Shown: positions 4,651-24,642 of the stretch, piece after piece | Layout of the letters: each line of letters opens with the position of its first letter | Position numbering within the stretch: the stretch's first letter is position 1 | Assembly: GCA_029260475.1 (NCBI GenBank) | Contig: JAJDDE010000064.1 | Location: 1-39,283 of the forward strand | Reading direction: 5' to 3' | DNA length: 39,283 bases | Source: Phycisphaerales bacterium | GTDB lineage: Bacteria; Planctomycetota; Phycisphaerae; Phycisphaerales; UBA1924 | The notes under the pieces: model-generated | Told to the model about the DNA's origin: nothing | Databases searched by the model: none | What the model saw: only the letters and a program-made list of their open reading frames with translations | Position numbers and translations under genes: made by a program

Positions 4651-7600
4651 ATGACTACCCCTTCCGAGGCTCGTAAAGGCCGCCCGCTGCTCAAGGCGAT
4701 GGCCATCGGCGCCGTGCTGCTCGTCCTGACGACCGGCGTGATCATCGCCTTCTTCGGACCCGCGATCGCCAGCGTCTTCGCACGCGGGCTGATCGAGGGT
4801 GCCGTGAACCCGACGATCGCGGGCGACGTGCGCGTGTCGGGCGTCTCCTTGTCGTGGAAGGGGCCTCAGAAGATCGGGCGCGTGGAGGTACTGGACGACT
4901 CCGGCGCCGCGGTCGCGACCTTCGAGGGCAGCGCGGACGCGGGTCTGTTCGCTTTGGCGACGGGGAATCTGGACCTGGGCGAGGTCTCCGTGGTGCGCAC
5001 GGATGGCACCCCGTTCGATGCGAACACCGCCAGACGTCTCTCGGCGGCCTTCGCCTCCACCGTGCCGCCCACGGGCGAACCCGCCTCGGTCCCCGAGGGA
5101 CTCAAGGCGGAGATCACCGTCAGTCTCGGCAGCGCCGAGATCGGCGGAGCGACGCTGTCGGATGTCGGCATGACCGCCAGCATCGAGACCGGGCAGACCA
5201 CCACCGTCGCCCTGCGAGCCAAGGGCGACAAGGGGCAGGACGCGCTGAAGGTGGATATCGAGGCGCCGACGTTGATCGGTGCCGATGGCGTGATCTCCCT
5301 CAGCGGCAATGGGCTGACCATCGAAGCCTCGGGTGAGGCGCCGACGGGGCTTCTCACCGCGATGCTGGGCGTCACAGCGGACGACGCGGACACGCTGCGT
5401 CTCGAGGATTTTTCTTTCGTCGAGCGAGACTGGATGCTCGTGCCCAAGGCGGGCAGCCGCCCGACGCTGCGCGGGCGCGTGACCGACCGGACCATCGTCG
5501 CGCTGCTCGCGTCGGGCACGGTCGCGGTTGACGAGGGCCCGAGCTTCACGCTGCGCCCCACCGCGTTCAGTGTGCCTCTGCCGGGGCCAAAGGGCGTTCT
5601 GGATCTTCGACAGGCCGAGCTCGCGTGGCGCTTCGACGCGGACCCGCTCATCGGCAGCGTGCTCAACGCGGAGGGCCGGCGCGTGCCCTTCTCCACGGAG
5701 CGGCTCGTCGCGACCGCCCGGTTCGATGCCGAGCTCGGCGCGGTGGTGGTCGAGGGCACCACGAACACGAGCGTGGACGGACAAACGGGCGGGGTGATCT
5801 CCATCGATGCGCTCGCGCTGGGCGTGCTCGACGCGGAGGGCGCGATCCGTGGCAGCGGGCCCGGCACGCTCAACGCTTCGCTCCGACTCACCGAGGTGCC
5901 CGGCGCGCTGATCGCCAGCGCGGACGAGCGTCTGGCGGACGCCGAGGGCGTGATCGGCGAGCGTGTGGACGTGGTGCTCGAGGCGTCGATCTCCGAGACC
6001 CAGCGCTCGCTCAACGGCGCGACGCTCCGCGTGGGCGATCCGAGCCTCGCGATGACGCTCAGCGGCGAGCACGGTTCGGCGACCGGTTACTTCGTCTACG
6101 ACGGCGCGCGAGGCGTGCGCTCGCTCGGTGAACGGGCACTGGTCATCAAGACCGAGAACGCCGGGCTCCTGGCGCAGCGGTTTGCGGGCACCGGTTCGCC
6201 TGTGGTGATCGGGTCGGACGTCGCGGCGGAGCTCGTGATGCAGGACATCGCGGTGATGCTGGATCGCGACGGCGCGCTCGATACCGACGCCCTCACCGGC
6301 GACGCGGTCTTCACGCTCGAAGCGTTGCACGTGACCCCCACGGACGCGCCCCCGGTGGAGGTGGACTCGCTGCGCCTGGTCGCGAACATCGGGGCCGGCA
6401 CGCTGGACTGGTCTTTGGACTCGACCCTCCGCACGGGCGATCGCGTCGCGACCGCCAACGGCTCCGGAGGCGTCGCGGGCCTCTTCGGCGCCGCGCCCGA
6501 ACCCTCTGGCATGCTCGGATTCGACGGCGTGCCGACGTCGCTCGCGACCATCGTTTCCGCGGCGCTGGGCGACCTGCTCGTCGAGACGGTCGGCGACACC
6601 GTCTCCGGAGCGATCGCGACTACGGATGCTTTGTCGGGCGGTTTCACTGTGGACCTCAACGGCGCTTTCGGCGGGGCCAAGGGTCTCGTCCGTCTCGAGG
6701 ACAACGCGCTCGTGCTCTCCGGGGCCGGTCGCGCCGGGTTCAGCATCCGCACGGAGCGCGCTGGACCCACGCTGCGCCGACTGCTGGCCGACGCGAGCGG
6801 GCGACGCATCACGCTCGATGACGGCGCGACGGTCTCGATCGATCTGCGCGATGCGAGCATCGCGCTGGGCGTCGATCGGTCGCTCTCGCCCTTGAAGGGG
6901 CTGCGTGCTGATGCGGAATTCAACCTCTCGGGGGTGCGCGGCACGATCGACGGCACGCCCGTGGCGTACGCCCTGGACGGCGCCCTCGTGCTCACCGAAG
7001 CGGGCGATCTCGTGGGCGGCATCGGCATCAGCGGCACCCACGACGGCCTCGCGTTCGAGGCCCTGGGCCCCTTGGCGATCGCGAACCTCCACGACGGTTC
7101 GGGCCTCCCCGACTTCACCGGCACGGTGCTCACGTCCGACATCACGGGCACGCTGCCCCTGGCGCTCGCCAAACTCGCGGGCGACCAACGCGTGCGCGAT
7201 GTGCTCGAGGGGCTCGCGGGCGACGGGCTGGCGGACGTCAGCCTCGTCACCGACAGCCAGGCGGCGCGCGGACAAGGCGGGCTGACGCTCACGCTCGCCT
7301 CTCGCGAGAAGGACACGACGCTCACCACGCAGTTCGGCCCGGACCGGCGCGGCGTGGTCATCGGCGACACGACGATCCGAGCGACGTTCACGCCGGAATT
7401 GTTCGGCCGGGTCATCACGCCCCTGCTCGAGGGCGGGGCCTACGAGGGCGTTCGTCTGGTCTCGAACGCGCGAGGGACCGCGTTCCTGCCGAGTGTGCTG
7501 GTTCCGCTGAAGAACCGGATGGTGCCCGACTTCGCGATGATGCCGGGTATCACGGGCCGCTTGAACTTCGAGGAGGACGTGGTGCTCGCGGGCGTGCCCT

Positions 7601-9315
7601 CCCCGCTCGACGGCCTGCCGATCGAACTCGGCGCTCGGGATGTAAGCCTCGGGTATCGCTACGAAGCCTCGTTCGGAAACCGTGCGCCGGGTGTCTTCCT
7701 CAACGCGCTGCTCTTCAAGCCGGGCACCGCCCACGACACCGCGGCGGTCTCGGTCTCGGGTGCGTTTGATCTGCCTCTCACGAGCCGAATGGGAGCGTTG
7801 AACCTCTCGGGCGACACCGAGCGCCTCGATGAACTGCTCGCCTCGGATGCGTACTTCCAGCAGCTCTTGGGCGAGACGTACTCGCTGGTCTACAAGGGGC
7901 GGGCGATCATCGATCAGCGCACGGAGGAGTCACCGACGGAGCTCACGTTCGAGTCTCGGCGCCTGCGCGCACAGGTCGGGCTGTGGCCGACGGCCGAGGG
8001 CGGGTTCGAGATGCGCAAGGCGGCGTACCTCGGCTGGTTCCTCACGCCGGAGAGCGCCACGCAGATGCTCCTCGGCGATCTCCAGCGGGCCTCGGGGCTG
8101 CGGGTTTCGCAGACCGTCCGGATTGACATCGTCTTCGAGGACCTCGCGGTGGGGCCGATGGAGACACTCTTTGCGCGCGATCTCTTCCGCGCGGTGGGCG
8201 CGTTCACCACGACGCGCATCGTCGTCGAGGATGCTGAAGGCAACACCGACGACCTCGGGTTCTTCGAGGGCAGCGTCACCGCGCTGCCCGACGGCACGAT
8301 CGAGTTCCGCGTGCAGGGCGAACGCGAGGCGATGGGGCCTCAAGCGGGCGGGCAGCCGATCACCGAACCGACGCTCGGGGTGTCGGGGCTGCTGCACGGC
8401 TTCGCCGATCCGCTCGGGCGACCGACCTTCGCCTCGACGCGCCCGACAGCGCTGGACGTCAACGGCACGCTCCCGACACGCCTCATCGACGCGCTGGGCG
8501 GCACCGACGGTCTCATCACCGCACTCGTCGGCCCCGACGCGAATGTGAACGCGACGATCGACGGCGAGGGAGGCTCGAACCTCAACGCGAGCTTCGTCGG
8601 CGCCAACGCCAGCGGCTCGATGTCAGGCACGCTGAACGAGTCGGTGGTCCGGATCCCCGCGGGCGCCGAGATCAGCCTCAGCCGTATCTCCATCGAGGCG
8701 TCGCGCCGCGTGCTGGGCACCGCGCTCCCGATGTTCTCGGAGTTCCAGAAGACGGCGCAGGACCAGCCCGCGCTCATCACCACCACGGGCCTCGCCGTGC
8801 CGCTCGACGGCGACCTCGCGAAGCTCGATGGTGATCTCACGGTGGACCTGGGCACCATGCGCTTCGCGACGCGCAGCGTGCTCGGGCAGGTGCTGAAACT
8901 GACGAACAACCGCGTGCAGGGACAGGTCGGGCAGAAGCTCGATCCGTTCCACATCGCCATCGAAGCGGGCGTGCTGCGTTACGACGAGGTGGTGCTGCCG
9001 CTGGGCGAATTCAACGTGGTGGTGGGCGGGAGCGTCAACCTCAAAAACAGGCGCGTGAACACCCTTGTTTGGGTGCCTTTCAGCGCGCTGAACGATGATC
9101 TCGCTCACGCGGCCGCCCGTGTACCCGGCGTGAACCGCCTGACGATGGTGCCGCTGCGCGTGCGCGGCCCGATCGACAAGCCCACTGTCGAATTGGACTC
9201 CAAGGCGATGATTCAGGGACTGCCCGACGCACTCTTGGGCACGCTGTTCGAAGACGTGCCGGGCGGTGTGGGCGATCTGCTCAATGACATCTTCAACCCG
9301 AACCGCGACCGCTGA
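4651..9315 (+). CDS. Giant AsmA/TamB-like membrane-anchored protein
   Basis: 1554 residues with one N-terminal membrane segment (about 14-38) and a very long, low-complexity beta-rich remainder of repeating strands dominated by G, A, L, V, D and T. This is the look of AsmA/DUF748/TamB/YhdP-type proteins, which form long hydrophobic grooves that carry lipids across the periplasm. The C-terminal part has an AsmA-like ending: FNVVVGGSVNLKNRRV, then a VWVPFSALNDDLAH region and VPLRVRGPIDKPTVELD, the 'G.l..P' element common at the end of these proteins. No enzyme motif is seen. It stands alone: 140 bp after nadA and convergent with the ferredoxin gene. A clear ribosome-binding site before the ATG is not seen. 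The lipid-transfer role is inferred from family resemblance. Confidence 0.75.
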   Translation: MTTPSEARKGRPLLKAMAIGAVLLVLTTGVIIAFFGPAIASVFARGLIEGAVNPTIAGDVRVSGVSLSWKGPQKIGRVEVLDDSGAAVATFEGSADAGLFALATGNLDLGEVSVVRTDGTPFDANTARRLSAAFASTVPPTGEPASVPEGLKAEITVSLGSAEIGGATLSDVGMTASIETGQTTTVALRAKGDKGQDALKVDIEAPTLIGADGVISLSGNGLTIEASGEAPTGLLTAMLGVTADDADTLRLEDFSFVERDWMLVPKAGSRPTLRGRVTDRTIVALLASGTVAVDEGPSFTLRPTAFSVPLPGPKGVLDLRQAELAWRFDADPLIGSVLNAEGRRVPFSTERLVATARFDAELGAVVVEGTTNTSVDGQTGGVISIDALALGVLDAEGAIRGSGPGTLNASLRLTEVPGALIASADERLADAEGVIGERVDVVLEASISETQRSLNGATLRVGDPSLAMTLSGEHGSATGYFVYDGARGVRSLGERALVIKTENAGLLAQRFAGTGSPVVIGSDVAAELVMQDIAVMLDRDGALDTDALTGDAVFTLEALHVTPTDAPPVEVDSLRLVANIGAGTLDWSLDSTLRTGDRVATANGSGGVAGLFGAAPEPSGMLGFDGVPTSLATIVSAALGDLLVETVGDTVSGAIATTDALSGGFTVDLNGAFGGAKGLVRLEDNALVLSGAGRAGFSIRTERAGPTLRRLLADASGRRITLDDGATVSIDLRDASIALGVDRSLSPLKGLRADAEFNLSGVRGTIDGTPVAYALDGALVLTEAGDLVGGIGISGTHDGLAFEALGPLAIANLHDGSGLPDFTGTVLTSDITGTLPLALAKLAGDQRVRDVLEGLAGDGLADVSLVTDSQAARGQGGLTLTLASREKDTTLTTQFGPDRRGVVIGDTTIRATFTPELFGRVITPLLEGGAYEGVRLVSNARGTAFLPSVLVPLKNRMVPDFAMMPGITGRLNFEEDVVLAGVPSPLDGLPIELGARDVSLGYRYEASFGNRAPGVFLNALLFKPGTAHDTAAVSVSGAFDLPLTSRMGALNLSGDTERLDELLASDAYFQQLLGETYSLVYKGRAIIDQRTEESPTELTFESRRLRAQVGLWPTAEGGFEMRKAAYLGWFLTPESATQMLLGDLQRASGLRVSQTVRIDIVFEDLAVGPMETLFARDLFRAVGAFTTTRIVVEDAEGNTDDLGFFEGSVTALPDGTIEFRVQGEREAMGPQAGGQPITEPTLGVSGLLHGFADPLGRPTFASTRPTALDVNGTLPTRLIDALGGTDGLITALVGPDANVNATIDGEGGSNLNASFVGANASGSMSGTLNESVVRIPAGAEISLSRISIEASRRVLGTALPMFSEFQKTAQDQPALITTTGLAVPLDGDLAKLDGDLTVDLGTMRFATRSVLGQVLKLTNNRVQGQVGQKLDPFHIAIEAGVLRYDEVVLPLGEFNVVVGGSVNLKNRRVNTLVWVPFSALNDDLAHAAARVPGVNRLTMVPLRVRGPIDKPTVELDSKAMIQGLPDALLGTLFEDVPGGVGDLLNDIFNPNRDR

Positions 9316-9932: not shown

Positions 9933-10205
9933 TTAGCGGCGCTTCTTGGCGACGCGTCGTTTCGTCTTCTTCTTGGTAGCGGCCTTCTTGGTCGCCTTCT
10001 TCTTCGTGCGGCGCTTGGCCTTCTTCTTGGTGGCCTTCTTCTTGGCCTTCTTCTTCGTGGCACGCTTCTTGGTCACGCGCTTCTTGGCGGTCTTCTTGCG
10101 TGCCTTCTTCTTGGTGGCAGCCTTCTTGGTGGCACGCTTCTTCGTCGTGCGTTTCTTGGTCGCGCGCTTTTTGGTGACGCGCTTCTTTGCGGTTCGCTTG
10201 GCCAT
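9933..10205 (-). CDS. Histone H1-like lysine-rich DNA-binding protein
   Basis: 90 residues built from only six amino acids: M, A, K, R, T and V. I count 41 K and 14 R, so about 61% is basic; there is no acidic or aromatic residue. The sequence is a run of short A/T-K-K-K/R units, as in bacterial histone H1-like (Hc1/AlgP-type) tails, and should be disordered until bound to DNA. The start was set at the ATG at 10205 because GAGGAGG lies 7 bases before it and the first residues MAKRTAKKRVTKKR match the start of the HU/H1 protein at 2098-2595. An upstream in-frame start would add residues of quite different composition. It has its own terminator downstream. Confidence 0.85.
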   Translation of the reverse strand: MAKRTAKKRVTKKRATKKRTTKKRATKKAATKKKARKKTAKKRVTKKRATKKKAKKKATKKKAKRRTKKKATKKAATKKKTKRRVAKKRR

Positions 10206-10281
10206 TGAATTGACCTCCTCGATCAGAGTCGGAGCGAGAGGAAAGTCCGGACGTACAGACACCGTGTGTACATCGTGGAAA

Positions 10282-13262: not shown

Positions 13263-13979
13263 ATGACACTCCGCCTCACCGCGCTCATCGCGGGCTCCGC
13301 TATCGCTGCGCCCGCCGCCCTCGCCAACCACGTCGATTTCATTCAAGACGACTCCAACCCGGGCAACGGGGTGACGAACGCCACCTTCTCGCTCAGCACC
13401 AACGGCCCGCTCGTGACGGACACGCAGGCGGGCGAGCCCGCCGACGTCCTGGGCGGGTTCCGCGGCGTCGCCATCACCAACACCGGCGGCTTCGGCGGCA
13501 CGTTCAGCGTTGCACGCAGCGCGGGCGACGATGTCATCACCGCGACGAACACCAACGTCGCCGCTGGCACGCTGGACCTCTCGTACCCGGGCATCTCCGA
13601 CAGCGACTTCGACACGAACTGGAACTTCATCGCGGTCAGCATCCCGACGCTCTCCAACAACACCGGCGACGGTGAGATCAACCTCTCCGTGACGATCCAG
13701 AGCTCGACGGGCACCGGCACCGCCTTCGCGATGGGCACCGGCATCGCGCCGGGTCGCATCGAAGAGCCCGGGACCTACTTCTTTGCTTTCAGCGATCCCG
13801 GCTTCGCGGGCGTTGACTTCTCCGATGTCGATGGTGTGAGCGTCCGCTTCGAGTCGGCGATCATCGGCACCGACTTCACGATCGCGTCGATCACCCGCGA
13901 GGCCGTCCCCGCGCCGGGTACCGCGTGCCTCCTCGGGCTGGGTGGCCTCGCGACGCTGCGTCGCCGTCGCTCCGCCTGA
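13263..13979 (+). CDS. PEP-CTERM-type exported protein
   Basis: 238 residues. An N-terminal signal peptide (about 1-20, ending AAPAALA) precedes a beta-rich domain full of T, N, G and D. The C-terminus has the PEP-CTERM plan: VPAPG sorting motif near 216, a short hydrophobic helix (TACLLGLGGLATL) and a terminal RRRR cluster. In bacteria with an exosortase this tail is cut and the protein is exported or anchored to the surface or exopolysaccharide. The exosortase is not in the window. The middle part has no recognised enzyme motif. The ATG was chosen because it begins the signal peptide; AAGGA lies about 9 bases upstream. It has its own downstream terminator and is probably monocistronic. Confidence 0.85.
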   Translation: MTLRLTALIAGSAIAAPAALANHVDFIQDDSNPGNGVTNATFSLSTNGPLVTDTQAGEPADVLGGFRGVAITNTGGFGGTFSVARSAGDDVITATNTNVAAGTLDLSYPGISDSDFDTNWNFIAVSIPTLSNNTGDGEINLSVTIQSSTGTGTAFAMGTGIAPGRIEEPGTYFFAFSDPGFAGVDFSDVDGVSVRFESAIIGTDFTIASITREAVPAPGTACLLGLGGLATLRRRRSA

Positions 13980-14032: not shown

Positions 14033-14049
14033 CATGCGCGGTGCCCCGA

Positions 14050-14061: not shown

Positions 14062-15663
14062 ATGAGCCAGAACGCCCCGTACTACATCACGACCCCCATC
14101 TACTACGTCAACGACCGCCCCCACGTCGGGCACTGCTACACGACGCTCGTCGCGGACGCCGCGGCCCGGTTGATGCGGTGCGCCGGGCGGGACGTCTTCT
14201 TCCTGACCGGCACCGACGAGCACGCGGAGAAGGTCGTGGAGAGCGCCGCCAAGAACGGCGTGACGCCCATCGAGTGGGCCGACCGCAACGCGGCGGAGTT
14301 TGAGCGGGCCTTCGCGCTGATGAACTTCAGCCACGACGACTTCATCCGCACCACGCAGGAGCGGCACACGACGGTGGTGCAGGCCCTGATCGCGAAGCTG
14401 CAGGCGTCTGGCGATGTGTACCTGGGCGACTACGTGGGCTGGTACGACCCCAGCCAGGAGGAGTACCTCACCGAGACGGTCGCCAAGGAGCACGAGTACA
14501 AGAGCCCCGTCACCGGGCGCGAGCTCGAGAAGCGCACGGAGCAGAACTACTTCTTCAAACTGAGCGCGTACGCCGACCGTCTGAAAGCGCACATCGACGC
14601 CAACCCCGGCTTCATCAAGCCCGAGGCACGCCGGAACGAGGTGCTCGGTCGGCTCGGGCAGGGACTGGTGGATGTGCCGATCTCGCGTGGCGTCAAGGAG
14701 GGCGACGTCGAGTGGGGCATCTTCATGCCGGGCGACGAGAGCCACCGCGTGTACGTCTGGATCGATGCGCTGATCAACTACTGGTCCGCGGTGCAGGCTC
14801 CCGATCGCATCAAGTACTGGCCCGCGCAGACGCACGCGATCGCCAAGGACATCCTGTGGTTCCACGCGGTGATCTGGCCCTGCATGCTCATGGCCCTGGG
14901 CGAGGAGCTGCCCGGGTGCGTCTACGCGCACTCCTTCTGGATCCGCGAGGGGCGGAAGATGTCCAAGAGCCTGGGCAACTTCATCGATCTGGCGACCATC
15001 AACGCCTACATCGAACGTTACGGCCTCGACGCCCTCCGCTGGTACCTGCTCACGCAGGGGCCGATGGGCACGACCGATTCGGACTTCGTGCACGCCAAGT
15101 TCATCGAGGTGTACAACGCCGACCTCGCCAACGGCATCGGTAACGCCGCATCGCGCGTCGCGAACATGATCGCCAAGTACTTCGATGGCGCGATGCCCGA
15201 GGTGACCGCCCAAGACGCGGCGGCGCAGGGGTTCGGTCGCGACTGGCCCGCGCTCACCAACCAGGCGGTCACCGACGCCGTCGAGAAGATGGGGGCCTTC
15301 GATGTCGGCGGTGCCCTCCGCTGCGGCCTCGAGCTCTCCAACGAGGTGGACCGCTACGTCCACGACACCCAACCCTTCCGCCTCGCGAAGGACCCGGACA
15401 ACCTGCCGCAGGTCGCGGCGATCCTCACCAACTGCGCCGAGGCCCTCGTCGTCGCGGCGAACCTCCTGCACCCCGCGATGCCGGGGACGATGACCAACCT
15501 GCTCTCCCGCTTCGGGCGTCCGTCGCCCGACACGCTGGGCGGCGCGGATGCGCTAAGCGCGTGGGGCGCGGTGCAGGCGGGGACGCCGATCGAGAAGGGT
15601 GAGGCACTGTTTCCGCGTGCGGATGGGGATGAGGAGCCGCCGGGTGGGGGTTGCGAACTATGA
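14062..15663 (+). CDS. metG: Methionyl-tRNA synthetase
   Basis: 533 residues. A class I aminoacyl-tRNA synthetase that charges tRNA-Met. The HIGH signature is HVGH (21-24), followed by FFLTGTDEHAEKV, the editing/connective region WYDPSQEEYLTE with no zinc knuckle, and KMSKS (299-303) in GRKMSKSLGNF. The helical anticodon-binding domain fills about 340-500. The end, GTPIEKGEALFPRADGDEE, matches the usual end of the MetRS core (GxxIxKxExLFPR). There is no C-terminal tRNA-binding EMAP/OB domain. The ATG at 14062 was chosen over an upstream in-frame GTG at 14041 because homology begins at YYITTPIYYVN; it has no ribosome-binding site. Its stop overlaps the next start (ATGA). The last 22 codons are copied inside the following gene. 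Confidence 0.97.
   Translation: MSQNAPYYITTPIYYVNDRPHVGHCYTTLVADAAARLMRCAGRDVFFLTGTDEHAEKVVESAAKNGVTPIEWADRNAAEFERAFALMNFSHDDFIRTTQERHTTVVQALIAKLQASGDVYLGDYVGWYDPSQEEYLTETVAKEHEYKSPVTGRELEKRTEQNYFFKLSAYADRLKAHIDANPGFIKPEARRNEVLGRLGQGLVDVPISRGVKEGDVEWGIFMPGDESHRVYVWIDALINYWSAVQAPDRIKYWPAQTHAIAKDILWFHAVIWPCMLMALGEELPGCVYAHSFWIREGRKMSKSLGNFIDLATINAYIERYGLDALRWYLLTQGPMGTTDSDFVHAKFIEVYNADLANGIGNAASRVANMIAKYFDGAMPEVTAQDAAAQGFGRDWPALTNQAVTDAVEKMGAFDVGGALRCGLELSNEVDRYVHDTQPFRLAKDPDNLPQVAAILTNCAEALVVAANLLHPAMPGTMTNLLSRFGRPSPDTLGGADALSAWGAVQAGTPIEKGEALFPRADGDEEPPGGGCEL
15575..15642 (+). repeat. 68-bp direct repeat, copy 1 (3' end of metG)
   Basis: Direct repeat of 16531-16598, 64 of 68 bases identical. 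It encodes the last conserved residues of MetRS and is the probable parent copy. Confidence 0.9.
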
Positions 15664-16607
15664 CTCGCTGGCTGATATGGCTATTGGCGTATTCATCTAT
15701 CAGCACGATGACATCGGTTGCATTCGCCCTGTGGACCTGGAACGAACACATCACCAAGCCAATTTTTGACGGCTGGATCGCGTTAATGCCACTCGACATG
15801 GATTGGCGTCAACTTCCGCCAGATGGACCGTTGGAATTCCGGTACTGGGACGGCAACTCTTGGAAGACTCGGGAATTCGGTGTGGTGATTGAATCCAAAG
15901 TAGATGCGATCTCGTTCGAGATTCGACGATCCAGCGTGTTCACAACGCCAGAGCGATATCAACAGCATCTGGATGTCCAGGAAAGCAAAAGCCGTTTCTA
16001 CGCCTCTGAACAGTCCATGACCATGCACGTCACTTGGATTCAGGTTCCTCAAAGTGTCATGGGCAGTGCGTTCACAGGCTTCCCTTTCCGCTCGTTCGGA
16101 AAATACGGGAGCGACCTCGGCCTGTTTCGTGGAGCGGACCCGCCCGATCGAAACTGGTCAACGCTAGCCGGAGGGACTCCGGTCGTGCGTCTCTCGGAGA
16201 TTGAGGAGCGCGGCCTGCTCTTGCCGGCGCGATGGTGGAACATCCCCGAGCCGCAAACGCAATTCGCGAAGCAGCAGGCGGGCTCAAATCTACCCGGCAC
16301 AAACACGCCGTATGTCCCCGATCCGAACCGACTGTGCGACGACGGCTCTCCTTCTCGTGTGCTATTGGGTGGCGTTCTCGCGAACTCGATCGTGTGGATG
16401 CTACCGCTGGTTGGGATGCACTTCGTGATTGGTACTGGGTGCCGCTGGAACCGACGCAGACGCGGCCTCTGCACCACGTGCAAGTACCAACTCGCGGGTC
16501 TCACCACCTGCCCCGAGTGCGGCACGATGAAGGCGGGGACGCCGATCGAGAAGGGGGAGGCGCTGTTTCCGAGGGCGGATGGGGATGAGGAGCCGCCGTC
16601 ACCATGA
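15660..16607 (+). CDS. Membrane protein with C-terminal zinc ribbon, fused to a copied MetRS tail (paralogue A)
   Basis: 315 residues. N-terminal membrane segment (about 4-24), a long outside region (about 30-240) with no recognised motif, a second membrane segment (about 240-258), then RWNRRRRGLC, C-x2-C-KYQL and CPECG (about 261-289), a treble-cysteine-pair zinc ribbon that should face the cytoplasm. Such ribbons end many otherwise unrelated planctomycete membrane proteins. The last 26 residues are not part of the family: 22 of them equal the C-terminus of MetRS. The gene overlaps metG by 4 bases (ATGA) and paralogue B by 4 bases. The central codons are visibly more AT-rich than in neighbouring genes. 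The function is unknown. Confidence 0.75.
   Translation: MTRWLIWLLAYSSISTMTSVAFALWTWNEHITKPIFDGWIALMPLDMDWRQLPPDGPLEFRYWDGNSWKTREFGVVIESKVDAISFEIRRSSVFTTPERYQQHLDVQESKSRFYASEQSMTMHVTWIQVPQSVMGSAFTGFPFRSFGKYGSDLGLFRGADPPDRNWSTLAGGTPVVRLSEIEERGLLLPARWWNIPEPQTQFAKQQAGSNLPGTNTPYVPDPNRLCDDGSPSRVLLGGVLANSIVWMLPLVGMHFVIGTGCRWNRRRRGLCTTCKYQLAGLTTCPECGTMKAGTPIEKGEALFPRADGDEEPPSP
16442..16526 (+). repeat. 85-bp zinc-ribbon cassette, copy 1 (in paralogue A)
   Basis: 79 of 85 bases equal 17383-17467. It encodes the basic RWNRRRRG stretch and the two cysteine pairs. It begins at the same codon number (about 261) in both genes. Confidence 0.9.
16531..16598 (+). repeat. 68-bp direct repeat, copy 2 (metG tail copied into paralogue A)
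   Basis: Direct repeat of 15575-15642. It is read in the same frame as in metG. The four base differences (GGT/GGG, GCA/GCG, CGT/AGG) are all silent. Confidence 0.9.
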
Positions 16608-17509
16608 GGCGGGCGCGACACATCGCGCTGTGCCTGATCGTTGGGTGCCTGCTGCAGTTCGGCGTCGCGTACGGGCTGTGGTTTGGGTATATCGAGCGGG
16701 GGTCGCCAACCCGTTGGACAGGAGACCCTCTTGATGGACCCGCCCCCAACGAGAGACGGGGGCAGCGCGAATTCACCACACTTAGCCCGGAGGGTTCGGA
16801 GCGCAGAGCGTTCGAGGTGTGGCGACTCGACCGGCCCACGCACTTCGGCGTGAGTGTGACGGGCGGTATTGCGTATGAGAACGCCGACAAGGTCGATCAG
16901 AGCCGAATTGAGTCCGAGGAATTCGGAAAGATGTTCGATAGCCTTACGCAGACCCAGATAATCACGATCCAGTGGAGTTGCCCGTCGCCCGCATCAAACG
17001 TGAAGTTCATGCGTCTTCAAGCCGGCTTCCCGTTCCCGACATTGATGCGACACGAGATCGAGCCGGACGAACTTATCGAGCACGAGCGTCGCGGCACGCT
17101 CTCGCTCGCGATCGCGTATATGGGGTATCGCCTCCATGACCCGGCATTCCAAAGGAGCATCCAATTGCCCGCTTGGATTTGGTACGACCGTGACCGCGCC
17201 TTCACCATGTTTGAATTGCCGGGCGTCAATGGATACAAAACGGTTGCCCCAACCTTGGGCTTGCCACTCTCTGCTTCTCCACGCTTCCCGCCGATGTGGA
17301 TCGGGATCACCGGTGCTCTTTCGAACACCCTGACCTACGCAGCATTGCTCTATGCAGGCCTCTTCGGCACCGGCGTAGCCATCCGCTGGAACCGACGCAG
17401 ACGCGGACTCTGCACCAAGTGCAAGTACCAACTCGCCCGCCTCGCCACCTGCCCCGAGTGCGGCACGCCCAAGCGTGCCTCACCTTCGACGGCTTCCTCG
17501 TCGTCCTGA
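16604..17509 (+). CDS. Membrane protein with C-terminal zinc ribbon (paralogue B)
   Basis: 301 residues with the same plan as paralogue A. Membrane segment about 6-25, outside domain about 30-225 containing an AGFPFPT segment that lines up with TGFPFRS of A, second membrane segment about 228-252, and a zinc ribbon GLCTKCKYQLARLATCPECG (about 268-287). It ends with a short Ser-rich tail, probably the original form of the family's C-terminus. Outside the membrane segments and the ribbon the two paralogues are barely alike. The ATG overlaps the stop of A by 4 bases. Base composition of the central part is again more AT-rich than the neighbours. The function is unknown; the zinc ribbon could serve protein-protein or nucleic-acid contacts. 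Confidence 0.75.
   Translation: MRRARHIALCLIVGCLLQFGVAYGLWFGYIERGSPTRWTGDPLDGPAPNERRGQREFTTLSPEGSERRAFEVWRLDRPTHFGVSVTGGIAYENADKVDQSRIESEEFGKMFDSLTQTQIITIQWSCPSPASNVKFMRLQAGFPFPTLMRHEIEPDELIEHERRGTLSLAIAYMGYRLHDPAFQRSIQLPAWIWYDRDRAFTMFELPGVNGYKTVAPTLGLPLSASPRFPPMWIGITGALSNTLTYAALLYAGLFGTGVAIRWNRRRRGLCTKCKYQLARLATCPECGTPKRASPSTASSSS
17383..17467 (+). repeat. 85-bp zinc-ribbon cassette, copy 2 (in paralogue B)
   Basis: Partner of 16442-16526, with six mismatches in 85 bases, three of which change an amino acid. Confidence 0.9.
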
Positions 17510-18974: not shown

Positions 18975-20006
18975 GTGACGCCTCCTCCCCCACAAGCAGG
19001 TACACCCAGTGCGCCCTCGGCGCCGACCAAGCCCATCAGTGGCGTGGACGCCGGTCTGTACCTGCACCCGCAGACCCTCTCCCGCCTCGGGACGATGGAA
19101 CTGCGGGCGAAGATGATCGTGGAGGGCGTGACCAGCGGCATGCACCGCTCGCCTTACCAAGGCTTCTCCGTCGAGTTCGCCCAACACCGCCCGTACGTCG
19201 CGGGCGATGACATCCGGCACCTGGACTGGAAGGTGTACGGGCGGTCCGACAAGCTGTACCTCAAGCAGTACGAGCAGGAGACGAACCTCGATCTCGTGCT
19301 GCTCGTGGATGCCTCGGGCTCGATGAACTACGGCTCGCGCTCATTCTCCTCCGCCTCGGGCTCGGGCCAGAAGACCTCGCACGACGGGCGGGGCGAGTGG
19401 ACGAAGTACGACCACGCGACCGCGACCGCCGCCGCCCTCGCCTACATGTCGCTCAAGCAAGGCGACCGGGTGGGGATGGGGATCTACGCGGACGGGCTGC
19501 TCGACTCCGTCGCCCGCTCGGGCTCGCAGGCGGCGTGGCGCCGGATCGTGGGTGCGCTCTCGACGCAGAGCGTGGACCGCCCGACGGACCTGGGCCGCAC
19601 GATTGATCAGGCCCTCGCGAAGCTCAACAACCGCTGCCTGATCACGCTGATCTCGGACTGCTTCGAGGACGTGGACGTGCTGCGTTCGGCGCTCGCGCGC
19701 ATCCGGCACCGGCGCCACGACGCGATCGTCCTGCAGGTGCTCGACCGCAAGGAGGTCACCTTCGACCTCGACGAGACGGCCCCCTTCCTCGGGCTCGAGG
19801 GAGAGGGACGCCTTCGCCTCGACCCACGCGCGATCAAGGCGGACTACCTCAAGGCCTTCAACGAGCACCGCGAGTCGGTCGAGAAGACGGTCAAACGCTT
19901 CGGGTTTGATTACCAACTCGTGGACACGCACACGTGGCTGGGTCCGCCCTTGGCGACGTTCATCGCGAAGCGCAACGCGCTGGTGAAGCGGAGGAAGCGC
20001 TCGTGA
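18975..20006 (+). CDS. DUF58 / von Willebrand A-like cytoplasmic protein
   Basis: 343 residues, no membrane segment. The DUF58 signature is GDDIRHLDWKVYGR (77-90) followed by KLYLKQYEQE. A von Willebrand A-type fold follows with an intact metal-ion site, VDASGSM (D112-x-S114-x-S116), a Thr/Gly loop around DRPTDLGRTI and LISDCF near 228. DUF58 proteins nearly always accompany a MoxR AAA+ ATPase and BatA-type membrane proteins and are thought to help assemble or chaperone envelope complexes. No moxR is visible here. The GTG start has GGGAG just upstream and a TAGGAT box at 18960-18965. The stop overlaps the next GTG by 4 bases. First gene of the seven-gene cluster. Confidence 0.9.
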   Translation: MTPPPPQAGTPSAPSAPTKPISGVDAGLYLHPQTLSRLGTMELRAKMIVEGVTSGMHRSPYQGFSVEFAQHRPYVAGDDIRHLDWKVYGRSDKLYLKQYEQETNLDLVLLVDASGSMNYGSRSFSSASGSGQKTSHDGRGEWTKYDHATATAAALAYMSLKQGDRVGMGIYADGLLDSVARSGSQAAWRRIVGALSTQSVDRPTDLGRTIDQALAKLNNRCLITLISDCFEDVDVLRSALARIRHRRHDAIVLQVLDRKEVTFDLDETAPFLGLEGEGRLRLDPRAIKADYLKAFNEHRESVEKTVKRFGFDYQLVDTHTWLGPPLATFIAKRNALVKRRKRS

Positions 20007-22315
20007 ACTTCCTCCACCCGGGCCTGCTGCTCGCGGGCGTGCTCGCGGTCTCCATCCCGATCATCATCCACCTGCTCTTCCGCCAGCGGCGCAAGCCGGT
20101 GCGTTGGGCGGCGATGCGGTTCCTGATCGAGGCGTACCGCAAGCGGCGTAGGCGGCTGAAGATCGAGCACCTCATCCTGCTGGCGGTGCGCTGCCTGGTG
20201 ATCGCGTGCCTCGCGTTTGCGCTGGGCAGGCCGCTGTTGGACGCCGCGGGGCTGCTGGGATCGTCGGGTCGTGACGTGTACGTGCTGATCGACAACGGCG
20301 TGGCCTCCTCGCTCCGGACCACGAACGGCGAGACCGCGCTGGACGCGCACAAGCGCACCGCGAAGGACATGCTAGAGGCGCTCAACTCCGGAGATCGCGC
20401 GGGGCTGATCGCTCTGGGCGGGCCGGCCGACCCGATCGTGCTGCCCGCTTCGAGCGATATCGGCGCGGTGACCCGCCTCATCAACGGTCTCGAAGCGACG
20501 GACGGCGCGACGGACCTCCAAGGCGCGCTCGGCGCGCTGGCGGCCCACCTCGAATCGCTCGAGGGCGACGAGGACCCGAGGCCCACCGTCGGGCTGCTCC
20601 TCTCCGAGTTCCGCACCGGCAGCGCGGACATCACCAAGCCGCTGATCTCCACGCTCAGCGGGCTCGAGGGCGTGCGCCTGCTCGCGCTGCAACCCGATGC
20701 CACTAGCGCTGGCAACGTGCAGATCGTGGGCATCGAGCCGCTGCGCTCCGTCGTGCTGACGGGCGCGGGGCGGGCGGCGGAGGACGTCTCCGTCCGCGTG
20801 CGCCTCGCGCGCACCGGCAGCGCCGTCGGGGAGGCGGGCGTCACCAGCGTGCGCCTGCGGGCGCTCGACCCGAACGAACTGGACGCGCCGGGCGCCGACG
20901 ACTCGCGCGCCAGCGTGCGATGGACGCCCGGGCAGAGCGACGCGAGCGTGACCATGAGCGTGCGCTTAGACCGCGCGGGCGAAGCGGGTGTCGGCGCGAG
21001 CGTGCTCGTGGGCAGCATCGATCGCGACGCGCTCGAAGCCGACAACTCGCTCCGGACGCCGGTGCGCATCACCGATGCGCTCGAGGTGGGCATCGTCGGC
21101 ACGCGCCGCTTCTCGGGCGGCACATCCGTCGCGCAGCGCTCCGCGGCCGATTGGCTCCGCCCCGCGCTCGCACCAACCGAATCGACGCCCGTGCGCATCA
21201 CGGACCTTGAGCCCGGTGCGCTGGACGCGCCGACGCTCGCGGGGCTCGATGCGCTCTTCGTGGCGCAGCCCGATCTGGTGCCCGAAGAGTCGTGGGCGAC
21301 GCTCCGGACCTTCGCGGACGATGGCGGGATGGTCGTCGTCACGCCCCCCAGCGAGGCGACGGTCCACCTGTGGACAGACCCCTTCCTGCGCGCGTTCGGC
21401 CTCGACTGGACCTTCGGGCGCGAGGCGATCGACGCCCCGGCGGACGCGGTCTTCACGATCCAGCCCGACGCCAACGACGGCGCGGGCTCCGGGGGCGTGC
21501 TCACCCTGCTGGCGGACGAACTCGAGCCGCTGGTCCGCCCGGTTGGCGTCTTCCGCACGCTGGCCCCCGATCTCGGGGCCTCGACGGGGACGACGCGGGT
21601 GCTCTCGCTGGACAACGGGGAGCCCTGGCTCGTCGCGACGCGTCCCGGGAGCGGCATCCGTGGAGAAACTGGGGCCAACGTCCCCTCTGGAACACCTGTG
21701 GATAACCAGGGTTCGGGGCGAGGGGTGCTCTTCTACCTCGCCAGCGCTCCCACGCTCACCTGGACCGACCTCCCGGCGCGTCCGCTGATGGTCCCACTCG
21801 CGCAAGAATTGGTCAGACAAGGGGTTGGGAGCTCCTCAGCGGGGCAAGCACCCATCGCGGGGTCGCCCATCGCAGCGCCCGGTGGCGCGACGTCCATCAC
21901 GCTGTTATCGAGCGGTTCTGAGGCACGCACGATCGATGTGGATAGCTCGGGGCTCGTGCGCTCCCCGATCCGCAAGGCGGGCGTCTGGATCGCCCGCGAT
22001 CGGGCGGGGCGTGATGAGGGCGTGATCGCTGTGAACGCCGATACGAACGGGGCTCGGACGGGCGTGTACGACCCCGAGGCCCTGCTGGCCTGGATCGGCG
22101 GCGTCTTCGGGCCCGCCGAGGGGGCTTCGGAGGCGGTCACCTGGCTCGACCCCGCAGAGCCCGCAGGCGCACTCGAATCGGGCGAACGGGGCTCACCCTT
22201 CTCGATGCCTCTCCTTCTTATGGCGCTCCTATTCGCGATCGTCGAAACGCTGTTGGCCCGCTGGTTCGCCCATGCGTGGCGCGAACCCGGCTTGTCGAGG
22301 GGGGTCATCGCGTGA
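20003..22315 (+). CDS. BatA-type membrane protein with degenerate VWA and GATase-like regions
   Basis: 770 residues. The N-terminus is the BatA (aerotolerance regulator N-terminal) domain: FLHPGLLLAGVLAVSIPIIIHL with a membrane segment about 5-25, FRQRRKPVRWAAMRFL, and a second membrane segment about 56-76. A VWA-like domain follows, but its metal motif reads LIDNGVASS where DxSxS is expected. The middle has beta-sandwich sequence, and about 360-480 resembles a glutamine-amidotransferase-like fold (VGIVGTRRF, LDALFVAQPDLV, DDGGMVVVTPP). A C-terminal membrane helix (PLLLMALLFAIVETLLA, about 733-752) ends the protein, so most of the chain lies in the periplasm between two anchors. It starts with GTG inside the previous stop codon and overlaps the next gene in the same way. 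Confidence 0.85.
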   Translation: MNFLHPGLLLAGVLAVSIPIIIHLLFRQRRKPVRWAAMRFLIEAYRKRRRRLKIEHLILLAVRCLVIACLAFALGRPLLDAAGLLGSSGRDVYVLIDNGVASSLRTTNGETALDAHKRTAKDMLEALNSGDRAGLIALGGPADPIVLPASSDIGAVTRLINGLEATDGATDLQGALGALAAHLESLEGDEDPRPTVGLLLSEFRTGSADITKPLISTLSGLEGVRLLALQPDATSAGNVQIVGIEPLRSVVLTGAGRAAEDVSVRVRLARTGSAVGEAGVTSVRLRALDPNELDAPGADDSRASVRWTPGQSDASVTMSVRLDRAGEAGVGASVLVGSIDRDALEADNSLRTPVRITDALEVGIVGTRRFSGGTSVAQRSAADWLRPALAPTESTPVRITDLEPGALDAPTLAGLDALFVAQPDLVPEESWATLRTFADDGGMVVVTPPSEATVHLWTDPFLRAFGLDWTFGREAIDAPADAVFTIQPDANDGAGSGGVLTLLADELEPLVRPVGVFRTLAPDLGASTGTTRVLSLDNGEPWLVATRPGSGIRGETGANVPSGTPVDNQGSGRGVLFYLASAPTLTWTDLPARPLMVPLAQELVRQGVGSSSAGQAPIAGSPIAAPGGATSITLLSSGSEARTIDVDSSGLVRSPIRKAGVWIARDRAGRDEGVIAVNADTNGARTGVYDPEALLAWIGGVFGPAEGASEAVTWLDPAEPAGALESGERGSPFSMPLLLMALLFAIVETLLARWFAHAWREPGLSRGVIA

Positions 22316-24642
22316 TCGAGTGGCTGCTGGACCTGGACACCCTGCAATTCGGCGCTGAGGGCGTGCGCCTGGGCTTCGAACGCCCGCTCCCGGGCTGGGC
22401 GTGGCTGATGATCGTGGTCGGCGCGATCGCGCTAGCGGGCTGGAGCTACACGAAGATGACGGGCTCGCGCTCGGGCCGCGGCACGCTCGCGGTCCTCCGC
22501 GCCGCCCTGCTGATCCTGCTGGCGGTGCTGATAGCGGGCCCCAAGCTCGCGCGCGTGGACGAGAGCGTGGAGCGCGACTGGGTGCTCGTGCTGGTGGACC
22601 GTAGCGCGTCCATGACGATCCCCGACGTCCAGAACAACGGCGGCCCGCGCGTCACGCGTGAGGCGCAGCTCAGTGAGGCGCTCCGCGACGCGTGGCCCGC
22701 GTTCAAAGAGATCGCCAACGAGCGCACAGTCGTGTGGCTCGGGTTCGATTCTGGTGCCTTCGATCTCGAGTCGGGGCAATCGCTGCGCCTGGGCGAGCCC
22801 GACGGGCAGGCGACGGCGCTCGGCGCGGCGCTGGATCAGGCGCTCGCGCGTGCCGCGGCCCGTCCTTTGTCTTCGGTCGTGCTGATCACGGACGGTCGCA
22901 GCGTGGACTCTCCGACCCGCTCCGCGCTGCGTCGCCTGCGCGCCGAGCGCGTGCCGGTCCACGCGGTAGCGCTTGGTTCGCCCGATCCGGTGGGCGACAT
23001 CGCGATCCGCTCGGTGGACGCGCCGCGCGCCGCCTTCGCGGGCGACGTCACGCCGGTGCGCGTGGACTTGGACACCCTGGGCGCCGCGCCGGACCAACCG
23101 GTCACGGTGCGTCTGGTGGACAACGCGACGGGGTTGGTGCTCGACGAACGACGCGTTGAGCCGGGCGACCTGGACGATCTGGTCACCCTGACGCACAAGG
23201 CGGAGCGGGCGGGCGACGCCTCGTGGTCTGTCGAAGCGATCCCAGACGGCGCGGACCTCGTCGCGGACAACAACCGCGTGGATTTCTCGCTCGAGCTCGT
23301 GGATCGCCCCCTGCGGGTGCTCTACATCGACGGCTACCCCCGCTGGGAGCAGCGGTTCCTCCGCAACCTGCTGCTCCGCGAGGCCTCGATCCTCTCCAGC
23401 GGCCTCATGCTCGCGGCGGACCGGCGCTACACGCAGGAAGGCGACATCGAGCTCACCACCCTGCCCGGCTCGCCCGAGGACTGGGAAGAGTTCGATGTGG
23501 TGATCATCGGTGACGTGCGCCCCGACGTGCTGCGCATCGAACAGCTCGAACAGCTGCGCGACCACGTCGCGACGCGCGGCGCTGGCCTGCTGTGGATCGG
23601 CGGCGAGGCCTCCACCCCCTCGCGCTGGTTCGATACCGAGCTGGGTGACCTGCTGCCCTTCAACCGCAACGGCGCCGATGGCACGCGCCTCATCGATCCC
23701 TTCGTCATGTCCCCCACCGCCGACGCGGACCGGCTGGGCGTCTTGCGGCTCTCCGAAGACCCCACCGACCCGTGGCCCAGCGTGCTCGACGATCCATCAA
23801 CGGGCTGGAGCACCTTCTATTACGGACAGGCGATCGACCCAGAGGGTGTGAAGCCCACTGCGGACGTGCTCGCTGAGGCGACGTCGATCGTGACCGGCGA
23901 CCGCACACCCATCGCGCTGACCATGCGGTACGGCGCCGGGCGCAGCGTGTACATCGCGACGGACGAGCTCTGGCGGTACCGCTACGGGCGCGCCGAGGTG
24001 TTGTACGAACGGTTCTGGGTGCCGCTGATCCGCATGCTCGGTCGCGAGTCGCTCTCGCGTTCGGGGCGTGCGTTGGTCTTCGAAGCGACACCGACGCGCG
24101 CGATCGTGGAGCGCCCGGTGCGCCTGCGCCTCGAACTGCTGGACCAGTCGCTGATCGATGTGGCGCCGCGCGAGATCCGCGTGACGCTCGAGCGCGTCGA
24201 GCAGGCGGGCGACCCCGTCACGGGCGGTGCCACGACCGTCGAAGTCACGCTCAAACGCGACGCCGATGACCCGCGCGTGTACCTCACCTCCTGGCAGCCG
24301 CCCGCGCCGGGCGTGTGGACGGCCCGCCCGGACGACCCGCTGCTCGCCAGCGCCGTGTCGGAGGAGGGCGTGACCGAGCGGATCGAGGTGAGCCTGCCGC
24401 AGGACGAGCTGCGCCGTCCGGAGACGGACCACCACGCGCTCGCGGCTCTGGCCTCGGAAACAGGAGGCGTGGTCGTGACACCCGCGGCCGCGGCATCCCT
24501 CACCGACCTCTTCCCGAACAGAAAACTCCGTGTGCTCTCCGAGCGTGCGGAATCGCTGTGGGACACGCCTCTGGCGATGATCCTGATCCTCCTGCTCGTG
24601 ACCAGCGAGTGGGTCGGCAGGCGGCTGTTGAAGTTCGTGTGA
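22312..24642 (+). CDS. VWA domain membrane protein with GATase-like domain
   Basis: 776 residues. Two N-terminal membrane helices (about 28-46 and 58-76) are followed by a VWA domain with an intact metal site: VLVDRSAS (D96-x-S98-x-S100), a TALGAALDQAL loop and VLITDGRS near 187. Then come a beta-sandwich region, and a GATase1-like fold (LRVLYIDGYPRWEQRFLRNLL near 340, VVIIGDV, GAGLLWIGGEAS near 425). These are the features of planctomycete VWA proteins that sit next to BatA homologues. A C-terminal membrane helix (about 755-772) makes the plan match the preceding protein, so the two may pair. The GTG start overlaps the BatA-like stop by 4 bases. A 123-bp gap with a hairpin follows. Confidence 0.88.
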   Translation: MIEWLLDLDTLQFGAEGVRLGFERPLPGWAWLMIVVGAIALAGWSYTKMTGSRSGRGTLAVLRAALLILLAVLIAGPKLARVDESVERDWVLVLVDRSASMTIPDVQNNGGPRVTREAQLSEALRDAWPAFKEIANERTVVWLGFDSGAFDLESGQSLRLGEPDGQATALGAALDQALARAAARPLSSVVLITDGRSVDSPTRSALRRLRAERVPVHAVALGSPDPVGDIAIRSVDAPRAAFAGDVTPVRVDLDTLGAAPDQPVTVRLVDNATGLVLDERRVEPGDLDDLVTLTHKAERAGDASWSVEAIPDGADLVADNNRVDFSLELVDRPLRVLYIDGYPRWEQRFLRNLLLREASILSSGLMLAADRRYTQEGDIELTTLPGSPEDWEEFDVVIIGDVRPDVLRIEQLEQLRDHVATRGAGLLWIGGEASTPSRWFDTELGDLLPFNRNGADGTRLIDPFVMSPTADADRLGVLRLSEDPTDPWPSVLDDPSTGWSTFYYGQAIDPEGVKPTADVLAEATSIVTGDRTPIALTMRYGAGRSVYIATDELWRYRYGRAEVLYERFWVPLIRMLGRESLSRSGRALVFEATPTRAIVERPVRLRLELLDQSLIDVAPREIRVTLERVEQAGDPVTGGATTVEVTLKRDADDPRVYLTSWQPPAPGVWTARPDDPLLASAVSEEGVTERIEVSLPQDELRRPETDHHALAALASETGGVVVTPAAAASLTDLFPNRKLRVLSERAESLWDTPLAMILILLLVTSEWVGRRLLKFV

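Follow-up and report, generated by a model that had tools for sequence, protein, structure and literature searches.

A repeated metG tail between two dissimilar membrane-protein genes of a Phycisphaerales bacterium, and how a divergent gene version may have been stacked there

Background

How does the end of a housekeeping gene come to be the end of the membrane protein encoded next to it? The question is raised by a stretch of Phycisphaerales DNA of 39,283 nucleotides, called the window in what follows, in which the gene metG is followed by two genes that we call A and B: the last residues of A are those of a copied metG tail. A first-pass annotation of this DNA considered that the simplest history was a tandem duplication of a unit made of the metG tail and the following gene, and ascribed the exclusively silent differences between the two tails either to selection on the tail or to recent gene conversion. 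We show below that the unit is indeed repeated, but that its parts have very different ages. The features of the locus are collected in Table 1.

Table 1. Features of the metG locus, in positions of the window
Feature	Positions	Strand	Basis or remark
metG, methionyl-tRNA synthetase	14062..15663	+	533 aa from ATG at 14062
Tail copy 1, read as the native metG 3' end	15575..15642	+	repeat search; homologous C-termini of relatives' metG
ATGA overlap, metG stop / gene A start	15660..15663	+	sequence read directly
Gene A: N-terminal TM helix, variable domain, C-terminal TM helix, zinc ribbon, metG-derived tail	15660..16607	+	ORF; AlphaFold2 model
Body of A	15660..16436	+	GC 56%, GC3 65%; nucleotide likeness to body of B at shuffled-control level
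Ribbon tract of A	16442..16526	+	93% identical to ribbon tract of B
Putative joint: ribbon end with a 12/17 match to the bases that precede tail copy 1	16514..16530	+	
Tail copy 2, C-terminus of A, metG frame	16531..16598	+	repeat search and direct reading
ATGA overlap, gene A stop / gene B start, design as at metG/A	16604..16607	+	sequence read directly
Gene B: family and topology as A; native ribbon-gene C-terminus PKRASPSTASSSS	16604..17509	+	ORF, alignment
Ribbon tract of B	17383..17467	+	alignment with ribbon tract of A

Results and discussion

The tail of metG and its copy

The product of metG matches the Pfam profile tRNA-synt_1g with an E-value of 6.6e-91, and its score of 406 bits against the NCBIfam profile TIGR00398 (metG), whose cutoff is 336, makes it a member of the methionyl-tRNA synthetases. 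A GTG in frame with the gene lies upstream of its ATG, at position 14041.

The repeat reported by the first-pass annotation is real and correctly placed: the repeat search and a BLAST of the assembly both recover two copies of 68 bp, identical at 64 positions, and the ungapped match around them extends to 85 bp with 89% identity. Direct reading confirms that copy 2 supplies, in frame, the C-terminal residues of A, which is fused to it. Three codons hold the four differences: GGT/GGG and GCA/GCG have one change each, and CGT/AGG has two. All four are silent, as had been claimed, and the 22 residues AGTPIEKGEALFPRADGDEEPP are encoded identically by both copies, each in its own reading frame. In a neutral simulation, the probability that four changes out of four are silent by chance is about 0.009.

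When the tail region is searched by BLAST against all 3.43 Mb of the assembly, it appears in two places only, the second with an E-value of 4e-26; on these grounds, we reject another source of the tail in this genome. The metG genes of same-family relatives end in the same type of sequence, KG(D/E)ALFPRAD, with a conserved C-terminus of the GxALFPR type, which shows that the tail is native to metG. In the metG loci of these relatives, no ribbon gene and no HD gene was found adjoining metG.

Three other features of the window are recorded here. An exported protein with a PEP-CTERM-like end (VPAPGTACLLGLGGLATLRRRRSA) is encoded directly 5' of metG (13264-13979, + strand); a small repetitive protein rich in lysine and alanine (KRTAKKRVTKKRATKK...), at 9933-10262 on the - strand, resembles histone H1-type nucleoid proteins; and a BatA-type cluster, with DUF58, BatA/VWA and VWA genes in succession, lies 3' of the HD-domain gene (18975-24642, + strand).

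Young ends, old bodies

According to their alignment and to an AlphaFold2 model, both A and B belong to a protein family that we define in the present analysis, the TM-variable-TM-ribbon proteins of the Phycisphaerales, by the presence of an N-terminal transmembrane (TM) helix, a G[WF]P motif, a second TM helix and a ribbon of the form CxxCxYxL..CPECG. In the layout of the family, the first TM helix is followed by a variable domain carrying the G[WF]P motif, the second TM helix, a basic stretch and the C-terminal ribbon; the invariant positions of the family alignment A2 are G140, P142, G238, C271, C274, Y276 and C284-G288. The model of A, with a mean pLDDT of 61.7, is confident for the TM helices (residues 2-32 and 236-267) and for the ribbon region, and mostly of low confidence for the variable domain. 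The topology, taken alone, suggests that this domain is exposed outside the cytoplasm.

Profile searches of Pfam and NCBIfam with A and B returned no match above threshold. Against the Pfam double zinc ribbon families DZR and DZR_2, the scores are 11-14.5 bits, where the gathering cut-off is 27, and only the four-cysteine pattern CxxCxYxL..CPECG is common to these families and to A and B. A literature search on the TM-variable-TM-ribbon family yielded nothing relevant.

The distance between A and B depends on where it is computed. In the ribbon tract, 85 bp long with sharp edges, the two genes are 93% identical, and 22 of the 24 identical residues use the same codon, where 10.9 are expected. 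In the bodies, about 780 bp long, the nucleotide identity is 0.559, against 0.544 for codon-shuffled controls (s.d. 0.009); the same codon is used at 22 of 55 identical residues, where 21.8 are expected by chance, and silent sites are saturated. BLASTP of the body of A against a set that included the body of B gave no mutual match, even at an E-value of 10. In both flanking repeats, the tail and the ribbon, the copies differ at about 6-7% of positions. Since the bodies are at the level of shuffled sequences, with silent sites at chance, and the repeats differ by so little, the bodies of A and B are far older than the tail and ribbon repeats. Composition also sets the bodies apart: GC3 is 65% in the body of A, 73% in that of B, and about 92-93% in metG and the HD gene.

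These distances contradict the simple duplication history. A recent tandem duplication, with the bodies then diverging rapidly by adaptation, would account for the structure of the unit, and bodies do evolve fast in the family. However, it would require the bodies to have reached shuffled identity and chance codon usage while the repeats on their flanks stayed 93-94% identical, and selection at the protein level alone cannot achieve such divergence in equal time. Unless a local mutator exists, the saturated bodies contradict this history, to which we give almost no credence: of the duplication first proposed, the repeated unit stands, and a single duplication followed by divergence does not. 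The target of a diversity-generating retroelement was also considered as a candidate, and rejected: the window genes covered by the Pfam scan include neither a reverse transcriptase nor a mobile-element gene.

The two junctions are built alike. Because a TGA overlaps the next start codon at both sites, the second tail with its ATGA looks like an intact metG/gene junction. At the other end of the tail copies, the 17 bases to their left match at 12 positions, which has a probability of about 0.0006 against random metG and ribbon 17-mers; we infer that the joint at the end of the ribbon of A lies in this weak microhomology.

The family in related genomes

A match to A is found in 82 of 100 same-family genomes, some of the matches being metG tails. 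Eight of these genomes have between 35 and 81 ribbon matches each, and the genome of the window has 43 at E-values up to 0.01; a search for dispersed copies of the ribbon with high identity found none other than B. In the same genome, on another contig than the window, an array of about eight ribbon motifs occurs within 3 kb, with several low-GC3 bodies (G000:C154, L146, positions ~5200-8230). Low-GC3 bodies are a tendency across the protein family, whose members are frequently in tandem. Their bodies vary strongly, with a fast evolution even among single-copy orthologues, and their ends remain similar.

The pattern of the metG locus recurs in other genera. Tandem arrays with near-identical 5' segments and ribbons, and with middles that cannot be aligned, are present in genomes G061, G022, G010 and G015, and further arrays were found; the same repeat scan on 336 kb of control sequence gave one other repeat of such size. 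A codon check of the G022 pair finds 19 of 47 same codons in the middle, where about 21 are expected, and ends well above chance.

Ribbons with at least 85% identity are found in 6 of 23 adjacent family pairs and in 0 of 163 unlinked controls of the same genome (p = 2e-10), the pairs being drawn from nearby search matches, so that these fractions are not unbiased rates. The ribbons of one pair, in G113, are 93% alike without any repeated 5' segment; because such pairs exist, gene conversion of ribbons probably occurs in the family.

Repeats of other kinds were observed near ribbon genes. In L121 (G061:C53), two tandem ribbon genes each have, close to their start, a copy of a palindromic hairpin element of 72 bp; the copies, at 1075-1145 and 1803-1874, are 89% identical. 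In L131 (G011:C13), at 1903-2430 and 5249-5486, a family of direct repeats of 60-246 bp, 86-94% identical, surrounds two ribbon genes.

Loci with none, one or two genes

In genus g23, a single syntenic site holds one unit in G124 and G106, and two units in G022, G126 and G128. The downstream flank is 81-87% identical where covered, the short contig of G128 matching only within the units. The ends of the units are similar, and the middles are saturated even between single-copy species. In the tree of the bodies, the one resolved grouping is a clade of the first units of G126 and G128, with support 99/98, that excludes their own neighbours. Given this supported clade, body types cross species lines in g23. 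The most similar bodies at this locus are never those of a neighbouring pair.

A sister case of the metG locus is found in G061. Here a mannose-1-phosphate guanylyltransferase-like (manC-like) gene provides, with its 3' end, the 5' segment that is repeated; the copies are identical at 66 of 72 positions, stop codon included. The copied tail sits between two ribbon genes and stops immediately ahead of the next unit; the upstream ribbon gene runs into it in another frame. Two genomes of the same genus can be compared at this site: G129, whose manC-like protein is 93% identical, has no ribbon gene, and G130, whose manC-like protein is 72% identical, has a single one. The number of ribbon genes after the manC-like gene is thus 0, 1 or 2 by genome, and the repeated tail is present just in the genome that has two. 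The first-pass annotation had proposed to look for a relative with one gene after metG and no fusion; a single-gene relative does exist, at this sister locus.

The body of the single gene of G130 matches the downstream gene of G061, u2, with 28% identity over 124 aa and an E-value of 3e-9, and has no match to the upstream gene, u1. Because it matches u2 and not u1, the comparison of sequences identifies the downstream gene as the resident, and the upstream gene, whose end is joined to the tail copy, as the newcomer; a match to u2 alone is what displacement predicts. A jump in divergence near the 3' end of the manC-like gene of G061, expected of a donor segment, was not found.

A history for the metG locus

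We consider it probable, with some reserve, that stacking took place at the metG locus: a divergent version of the gene would have been placed upstream of the resident one. Behind metG, two versions of the locus probably existed in the population, metG-tail-A and metG-tail-B. DNA with the A version would have recombined into a chromosome with the B version: pairing on metG would have anchored one side, and the ribbon end of A would have joined the resident metG tail through the weak microhomology. The product of such an event would have the order metG, tail 1, A, ribbon, tail 2, B, ribbon, in which the second metG tail would be the remnant of the displaced metG/B junction, turned into the C-terminus of A. 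By analogy with the manC-like locus, A would be the newcomer, brought by donor DNA, and the events would have followed this order.

Stacking would explain the age gap between ends and bodies. It would also explain the intact ATGA junctions, tail 2 continuing to a TGA that overlaps the ATG of B, as expected of an intact metG/B junction, and the silent-only differences of the tails, which would come from two working metG alleles; the composition of the two bodies, unlike that of the neighbouring genes, also speaks in its favour, as do the tandem arrays of other genera, the match of the G130 body to u2 alone and the supported clade at the g23 locus. The silent changes are best read as allelic divergence, each tail under selection within a working metG; gene conversion of the metG tails is possible. 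The following counts against stacking: neither putative ancestral version, metG with A alone or with B alone, was encountered among the genomes compared, the metG genes of same-family relatives lack an adjacent ribbon gene, the manC-like gene of G061 lacks the donor step in divergence, the ribbons of G113 are alike with no repeated 5' segment, and bodies evolve fast between single-copy orthologues.

The main rival to stacking is an old tandem duplication of the metG tail and the gene within one genome, after which the bodies became saturated and repeated conversion kept the tails and the ribbons alike. It yields an identical unit structure, and both the excess of similar ribbons among adjacent pairs and the G113 pair, which looks like conversion, are in its favour. 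However, it needs two short tracts to be converted and nothing in between; at the manC-like locus, the single gene of G130 groups with u2 alone and leaves u1 without a match; and at the g23 locus no neighbouring pair has the most similar bodies. We think this history rather unlikely, but worth keeping in sight. It could also be that A and B were already neighbours, and that a template switch or an ectopic conversion put the metG tail alone onto the end of A. The weak microhomology at the left edge and the short, sharp-edged, ribbon-only tracts of the family would suit such a patch, but tail 2 ends exactly in the ATGA overlap with B, as metG does with A, and the patch must hit there by chance; moreover, the copied tail of G061 includes its stop codon and ends directly before the next unit. 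Such a patch is an improbable history, and short-patch conversion as the sole cause is rejected, as it leaves the intact ATGA junctions and the manC-like case unexplained.

Significance and comparison with known systems

Stacking may reach beyond one locus. We suggest tentatively, and with more doubt than confidence, that in this family of the Phycisphaerales variable domains that look unrelated are passed around between ends that hardly change, new versions being stacked before old ones, each time leaving behind the tail of whichever housekeeping gene stands upstream. If true, this would be a general diversification system for surface or signalling proteins in the lineage, in which the repeated tails and ribbons would let either copy loop out again. 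With stacking, the metG tail on A becomes a readable scar of the growth of a very large, apparently unnamed gene family of the Planctomycetota, and its signature, a repeated upstream-gene tail and a repeated ribbon flanking unalike bodies, can be searched genome-wide. The results suggest that membrane proteins of ordinary appearance are also subject to the kind of displacement by divergent versions that is known from toxin loci.

In the effector-immunity modules of the V. cholerae T6SS (PMC5361080), and in main and orphan Rhs loci (PMC3967940), a new version takes the place beside an upstream anchor and moves the older one further downstream; the junction keeps short segments that are nearly identical. 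In Salmonella rhs, these segments are 95% identical over 522 bp. The authors propose homology-facilitated illegitimate recombination for these displaced modules (PMC5361080, PMC3967940). The metG locus resembles such arrays by the short repeat at its junction; the order of newcomer upstream and resident downstream is seen only at the manC-like locus of G061. Unlike such arrays, the metG locus is anchored on the end of a housekeeping gene, and no toxin or immunity domain is recognised in A or B, neither of which has a Pfam or NCBIfam match above threshold. T6SS arrays lose their old effector; at the metG locus, both genes are still open.

Homology-facilitated illegitimate recombination is described in transformable bacteria (PMC3240628; de Vries and Wackernagel 2002, as cited in PMC5361080). 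Its combination of one homologous anchor and one joint of low homology would give the order of segments of the metG locus, where we infer it from the product only, the joint matching at 12 of 17 positions. Merodiploids arise by unequal exchange during transformation (PMC3784515), and there too, incoming DNA and unequal pairing lead to a tandem duplication. However, in merodiploids a single chromosome supplies the copies, which measure about 100-900 kb; those stacked at the metG locus are divergent and about 1 kb long.
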